Of a stretch of DNA of 64,000 nt, positions 17,586 through 18,022 are shown in pieces. The position numbers and the translations under genes are program-made. Source of the stretch: Bacteroidota bacterium (GTDB lineage: Bacteria > Bacteroidota > Bacteroidia > Bacteroidales > B39-G9); NCBI GenBank assembly GCA_015222055.1, contig JADFUR010000117.1, forward strand, positions 1 through 64,000, written 5' to 3'. The notes under the pieces were generated by a model. The model was not told where the DNA came from. It was given only the letters and a program-made list of their open reading frames with translations, and searched no databases. Numbering within the stretch: the first letter of the stretch is position 1; the number at the start of each line of letters is the position of its first letter.

Positions 17586-17658
17586 TGCGGGGTGGAGCAG
17601 CTGGTAGCTCGTTGGGCTCATAACCCAAAGGTCGTAGGTTCAAGTCCTGCCCCCGCTA
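17586..17658 (+). tRNA. Initiator tRNA-Met (CAT anticodon)
   Basis: TGCGGGG/CCCCGCT acceptor with 1-72 mismatch (T:T), D arm GAGC/GCTC, anticodon stem TTGGG-CTCATAA-CCCAA, T arm GTAGG-TTCAAGT-CCTGC; CCA not encoded. Confidence 0.95.
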
Positions 17659-17663
17659 CTAAA

Positions 17664-17695
17664 AATCCTTAAAACGAAAGTTTTAAGGATTTTTT
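17664..17695 (+). terminator. Rho-independent terminator after tRNA
   Basis: AATCCTTAAAAC-GAAA-GTTTTAAGGATT followed by T run. Confidence 0.92.
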
Positions 17696-17942
17696 ATACA
17701 TACATACTTTTCTCTAAGACATTCAAAAAATACACATTGGGTTTGCTTCAGATATTGATAAACGGTTATTATCGCATAACCAACTTGCTAAAAAAGGTTG
17801 AACCATTAAATTTAAACCTTGAAAATTAATTTATTCTAAAGTAAATAAAACTAAAAGAGAAACCATGAAACGAAAAAAACAACTGAAGTCTGCAAAAGGT
17901 CGTAAATTTATTCGTAATATGATTAAACAAAAAAATATTTAG
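17695..17942 (+). pseudogene. GIY-YIG endonuclease-family pseudogene (one frameshift, two in-frame TGA)
   Basis: frame from 17698 reads TYILFSKTFKKY; after a ~1-nt deletion the frame from 17733 reads HIGFASDIDKRLLSHNQLAKKG*TIKFKP*KLIYSKVNKTKRETMKRKKQLKSAKGRKFIRNMIKQKNI*, matching the Bacteroidota GIY-YIG pattern YxLYSxxxxKYYIGxTxDLxxRLxxHN..KKGWTxKFxPWxLxY..A.xREKQLKSAKGR. Confidence 0.85.
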
Positions 17943-17971
17943 TGTTGCACTCTTATCCACCAACTGACAGA

Positions 17972-18022
17972 CGTAGGTTCAAGTCCTGCCACAGCGACTA
18001 CAAAGACTAATTAATTAGTCTT
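17972..18022 (+). pseudogene. tRNA 3'-end fragment (T arm + acceptor 3' strand) with terminator-like hairpin
   Basis: CGTAGGTTCAAGTCCTGCC (17972-17990) identical to 17633-17651 of the tRNA; then AAGACTAATTAATTAGTCTT palindrome (18003-18022) and T-rich tract. Confidence 0.75.

Follow-up and report, generated by a model that had tools for sequence, protein, structure and literature searches.

The tRNA-fMet locus of the window

We analyzed a stretch of 64,000 nucleotides (the window) from a Bacteroidota-type genome (G000, contig C90), in which an intact initiator tRNA gene, tRNA-fMet, is followed by a terminator-like hairpin, a degraded GIY-YIG nuclease frame, a disabled partial copy of the same tRNA (tRNA′), a second terminator-like palindrome, and a host gene that we take to be rbfA-like (Table 1). 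The GIY-YIG reading starts inside the T run of the hairpin and is the only frame between the tRNA and the tRNA′, an integrase gene being absent from this interval. An Rfam scan of the locus matched the tRNA and nothing else, and the tRNA is uninterrupted, which ruled out a group I intron or another RNA element.

Table 1. Features of the tRNA-fMet locus (window coordinates)
Feature	Position	Strand	Basis
Intact initiator tRNA-fMet (Met(cat)), host gene in front of the element	17586..17659	+	ARAGORN; Rfam RF00005, 63.6 bits
Terminator-like hairpin in the tRNA-to-nuclease gap; inverted-repeat stem 17667-17688, followed by a T run	17665..17696	+	sequence
GIY-YIG nuclease pseudogene, ending with TAG at 17940-17942	17692..17942	+	PF01541 match; alignment of relatives
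tRNA′, disabled partial tRNA-fMet copy, anticodon stem to acceptor end	about 17944..17999	+	sequence comparison with tRNA-fMet
Decayed palindrome TCCACC-AACT-GACAGA within tRNA′	17956..17971	+	homologous to the TCCGCC-nnnn-GGCGGA of relatives
Exact 19-nt copy of the T-arm region (= 17633-17651, tRNA positions 48-66)	17972..17990	+	sequence match
Native terminator-like palindrome; counterpart directly 3′ of the tRNA in the element-free congener G001	18003..18022	+	comparison with G001
Host flanking gene, presumably rbfA-like; anchor for locating the orthologous empty site	18088..18426	+	our own reading

The nuclease gene in the window is dead, through a frameshift, two TGA stops, and the loss of the catalytic Glu. 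One frame from position 17692 reads FYTYILFSKTFKKY, and after a one-base shift near 17731-17735 the reading continues as IHIGFASDIDKRLLSHNQLAKKG*TIKFKP*KLIYSK...IKQKNI*. The read-through translation matched Pfam PF01541 with an E value of 2.5e-8 and 34.5 bits, above the cut-off of 22.6. The in-frame TGA codons (17799-17801 and 17820-17822) stand where relatives have Trp, and a Lys is found at about 17874-17876, where the catalytic Glu is invariant in the alignment of relatives. The window copy fits the superfamily by its profile but lacks the intact frame and catalytic residues that its relatives retain. Recoding of TGA, which would fit the Trp positions of both codons, was set aside; TGA terminates 3 of the 36 long ORFs in the window, making decay the simpler explanation.

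The tRNA′ begins with 'GTTGCACTCTTA' (17944-17955), corresponding to 'GTTGGGCTCATA' of the tRNA, and is thus longer than the earlier note had it. The decayed 16-nt palindrome comes next, with 3 of its 6 pairs remaining, and the exact 19-mer starts immediately 3′ of it; the similarity that starts with the 19-mer reaches the acceptor end (24/27 identical). Relatives have an intact version of this palindrome in the same place. Since it sits exactly at the position characteristic of the fMet family (see below), with the 19-mer next to it, the fragment is the decayed tRNA′ of the fMet element family. The earlier note, made from the letters of the locus, had described an intact tRNA-fMet with a terminator, a degraded GIY-YIG frame behind it that is split and closes with a stop codon ending at 17942, a 19-nt T-arm repeat, an acceptor-like end, and another terminator-like palindrome, and the tRNA calls, the profile search, and the sequence comparisons bear out each of these.

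A second relic is present in the same genome (G000:C71:1-270, locus L215), where a tRNA′-Val-like piece with the palindrome TCCCGACATTTCGGGA is followed by a terminator and, where the contig begins, by a GIY-YIG frame that is truncated.

Small GIY-YIG frames beside tRNA genes in Bacteroidota

Across 99 relatives, small GIY-YIG frames recurrently adjoin tRNAs, with partial tRNA copies alongside. We also surveyed 296 Bacteroidota genomes with completeness of at least 90%, and a profile match to these nucleases was found in 196 of them (about two thirds); triplets of tRNA, GIY-YIG frame, and partial tRNA proved common across Bacteroidota. Among 110 of the best-scoring Bacteroidota loci by nuclease profile, 96 had an intact same-strand tRNA beside the nuclease, and, because the loci were ranked with a profile from order-level relatives that are mostly tRNA-linked, this 87% adjacency sets an upper bound on the share among GIY-YIG genes in general. 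From tRNA density, we estimate that chance would give about 1% or less. The tRNA lay upstream in 82 loci (0-250 nt) and downstream in 14 (3-86 nt), and an adjacent antisense tRNA was found at none of the 110; about half of the remaining 14 loci begin near a contig edge. The tRNA types include Val, fMet, Asp, Gly, Asn, Pro, Ala, Ser, Arg, Phe, Gln, and Lys. The elements are about 340-410 nt long in the measured cases and hold one small gene, and tandem units occurred at 41 of the 110 loci.

A tRNA′ was present at 70 of the 79 upstream loci with enough downstream sequence for the comparison, each scoring above every shuffle, so the 19-nt match in the window is not due to chance. The best match of 68 of these 70 copies was their own tRNA over any other isotype. 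A short palindrome was detected in 58 of the 70, compared with 8.6 expected from shuffles, but the same hairpin test scores 25 intact tRNAs owing to their native stems, so that this count overstates the contrast and more weight belongs to the alignments themselves; some copies lack a clear palindrome. In the alignments, the arm swapped for the palindrome is usually the anticodon arm (e.g., GAGCA-TCCCGA..TCGGGA-GGGTC in Val), while Asp and some Asn copies have it in place of the T arm, and Phe and Arg copies in place of the D region. A mirror form was also found, in which a 5′ tRNA part with a palindrome precedes the nuclease and the intact tRNA follows it.

Other arrangements were seen at individual loci. 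L008 (about 670-1400) and L015 (786-2527) carry tRNA-fMet/tRNA-Val arrays with a spacing of roughly 106-120 nt, many without an intervening nuclease. Just upstream of an intact tRNA-fMet in the relative G005 (L058, about 2600-2806) lies a broken 5′ tRNA-fMet copy with palindromes, where we noticed no GIY-YIG frame. At L022 (about 1498-1692), a GIY-YIG domain is in frame within a 1143-residue open frame, which is presumably a type I restriction HsdR subunit.

Occupied and empty sites and a candidate homing mechanism

Occupied and empty alleles of one site, as expected of a homing endonuclease gene, were found at two loci. In the congener G001, the terminator and the rbfA flank come directly after the tRNA-fMet, whereas in the window the same flank follows the tRNA′; the interval is longer by about 335 bases in the window, the G001 contig beginning 10 nt upstream of the tRNA so that the left flank is uncovered. 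G001 lacks the ORF and also the second tRNA piece, and no ORF-free relative with both tRNA pieces around an unrelated spacer was seen at the window locus. The tRNA-fMet genes of the two genomes differ by one D-loop base. A better pair comes from a tRNA-Tyr/Gly/Thr cluster in another genus, in which the Gly-Thr gap is 11 nt in G222 (empty) versus 425 nt in its congener G129. The longer gap, at tRNA-Gly(tcc), contains the nuclease and a tRNA′-Gly, and the flank after the tRNA′ matches G222. The tRNA-Gly gene is identical in the two genomes, the palindrome disrupting the tRNA′ while the intact tRNA is unchanged. Most other family members in this search have short gaps without a nuclease. A further candidate pair, L193/L194, was dropped; the upstream sequence and the tRNA match, and the downstream flanks are unrelated.

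The PF01541 match, the recurrent triplets, and the empty sites support the proposal of the earlier note that an endonuclease cassette associated with the tRNA has duplicated or captured the 3′ end of a tRNA here, in an att- or homing-like manner. We consider it fairly likely that the dead copy in the window stems from a minimal homing element resident at tRNA genes. Such an element would insert into unoccupied tRNA genes by the action of its nuclease and repair, and it is probably selfish. A live element comprises an intact host tRNA, a same-strand GIY-YIG gene directly beside it, and a tRNA′ with one arm swapped for a palindrome. The nuclease would cut the cognate tRNA gene in element-free DNA, and repair off the element-bearing copy would bring in the nuclease and the tRNA′. 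The tRNA would stay complete, with the element providing the missing half, and the tRNA′ would be both the junction scar and the right-hand homology arm, in which the palindrome would abolish the target. With the unit and the tRNA′ repeated, the element could expand in tandem, decay, or be lost, and the window represents a decayed end state.

Also as in homing endonuclease genes, the association holds with one target gene across hosts. A search blind to context with an fMet-linked Gracilimonas protein returned 79 loci, mostly in Bacteroidota and Balneolota, and the adjacent same-strand tRNA, where there was one, was tRNA-Met(cat) at 49 of 56 loci. On the nuclease tree, which has few well-supported forks since the protein is short, tRNA identity changed 56 times compared with 104 in shuffles, showing that the nuclease clades follow tRNA identity, and the window protein groups among the fMet-linked rows. 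Pairwise dN/dS values among intact copies were 0.045-0.18, indicating purifying selection.

Another explanation is passive spread, in which the ORF is carried along by ordinary homologous recombination between conserved tRNA genes and by local tandem duplication, and the nuclease is a cellular one (e.g., for repair) uninvolved in the insertion. Recombination inside one tRNA gene would be enough to hold element clades to that tRNA. In keeping with this explanation, the ORF is flanked by direct repeats of the tRNA′, often of the terminator too, and tandem arrays are common. However, such spread would leave unexplained why it is this type of nuclease that adjoins a dozen kinds of tRNA, always in one orientation, as well as the disabled, palindrome-bearing tRNA′, and we regard it as quite improbable.

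The main difficulty for the homing reading is that the self-protection of the intact tRNA is unexplained. With the tRNA the same (G129/G222) or one D-loop base apart (window/G001), a nuclease recognizing the tRNA gene alone should cut its own host. The main rival explanation requires no such protection and fits the identical tRNA in occupied and empty genomes: a structure-specific, SLX1-like nuclease would act on the tRNA′ palindrome, as a cruciform or folded single-stranded DNA, as the end of the element, and end homology would place the insertion by the tRNA. Such an enzyme would be more a hairpin-recognizing transposase than a sequence-specific homing enzyme. The predicted fold of the relatives is a GIY-YIG domain (pLDDT 91), for which UPF0213 proteins and SLX1 are the nearest solved structures by sequence and fold, and the SLX1 likeness would suit this explanation. 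The palindrome position is moreover fixed per element family, with the stem sequence varying and the pairing retained. About 60 fMet-family tRNA′ copies from Bacteroidota, Balneolota, and Rhodothermota share one position with TCCGCC-loop-GGCGGA, and the variants TCCGTC/GACGGA, TCCGCT/AGCGGA, and TTCGCC/GGCGAA are fully paired.

On the other hand, palindrome recognition would leave the link between nuclease clades and tRNA identity unexplained, a clear palindrome is present in only 58/70 tRNA′ copies, and similar palindromes occur without a nuclease away from tRNAs, so that they are not marks of the element alone. A genome-wide count in G000 gave 20 palindromes of the TCCCGA..TCGGGA type (loci L203-L222) versus 1 for a control pattern, and 19 of the 20 lie away from a tRNA′, for which reason we rejected the idea that the palindromes are unique to it. 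The dispersed, REP-like palindromic repeats of these genomes resemble the short palindromes of the tRNA′, which differ in having fixed positions, in replacing a tRNA arm, and in lying beside a GIY-YIG gene. The dispersed palindromes of G000 look like small inserting palindromes in their own right, and their occurrence outside tRNA contexts means that the tRNA′ palindrome may be an independent insertion. Several of them are nested in the loops of other inverted repeats, e.g., GTCATTGCGAG..GAAGCAATC. Overall, we think structure-specific action on the palindrome rather unlikely and retain the homing reading.

At every tRNA-adjacent locus the nuclease gene and the tRNA share a strand, and tRNA-like arms are retained in the tRNA′. 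Both would also suit an addictive or regulatory module, in which the nuclease targets the RNA of the tRNA or tRNA′, with the transcript of the mutated tRNA′ serving as a decoy or antidote. This seems highly improbable. The GIY-YIG enzymes known to us cut DNA, the 5′ acceptor strand is usually missing from the tRNA′, and a mobile element is the better match to the high turnover and to empty sites that are clean.

Relation to known systems and implications

Phage SegB is the closest known system. The accessible text of the SegB report presents this protein of phages T4/T6 as a free-standing GIY-YIG homing endonuclease of tRNA clusters, with reported cleavage sites inside tRNA genes at the motif RAWTSGAAC and a link to tandem amplification of tRNA-nuclease units, and that text does not describe a partial tRNA copy with a palindrome (PMC13096335). 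The motif is the complement of a T-arm GTTCSAWTY. The elements described here are like SegB in having a GIY-YIG gene that adjoins tRNA genes and forms tandem units, but unlike it they are chromosomal, single-domain, and family-specific for one tRNA. A search of 50,697 phage records yielded no match and a plasmid search yielded one weak match, and a phage or plasmid origin was rejected on these grounds. The nuclease, of about 80-90 codons and without a separate DNA-binding domain, matched a phage endonuclease PHROG weakly, and its match to a model for group I intron endonucleases stayed below the cut-off. The element would act like a free-standing homing gene and is a candidate member of that class; that the nuclease cuts tRNA genes, that repair then copies the element, and that the palindrome plays a part are inferred.

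Integrative elements with tRNA att sites are flanked by an intact tRNA and, at the opposite end, by a partial copy, with tRNA function kept. The elements here share this layout and also leave tRNA function in place, but differ in being without an integrase, in their small size and single gene, in the palindrome in the tRNA′, and in the existence of the 5′-side mirror form. The accessible part of the 2006 GIY-YIG superfamily survey does not mention a tRNA-gene association for UPF0213/SLX1-type proteins. In the open literature, which leaves subscription papers and preprints largely outside, we found no description of tRNA/GIY-YIG/tRNA′ units in Bacteroidota. It is possible, as a tentative proposal, that they form a minimal mobile-element class and rank among the commonest mobile elements of Bacteroidota. 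The GIY-YIG nuclease, SLX1-like and about 85 residues long, would then mobilize itself into tRNA genes without an integrase, transposase, or intron, and a tRNA mimic bearing the palindrome would serve as the end of the element.

Given the matches in two thirds of the genomes surveyed (196/296) and the position of nearly all best-scoring loci on tRNA genes, the element is probably a major overlooked occupant of Bacteroidota tRNA loci. It also accounts for many odd short GIY-YIG frames in which the N-terminal part is read from a tRNA, and for disabled copies of tRNAs, which make tRNA annotation harder. Although the copy in the window is dead, live relatives adjoin many kinds of tRNA throughout Bacteroidota, and they raise the question of what ties so small an enzyme (about 85 residues) to one tRNA gene with that gene left intact and unaltered.
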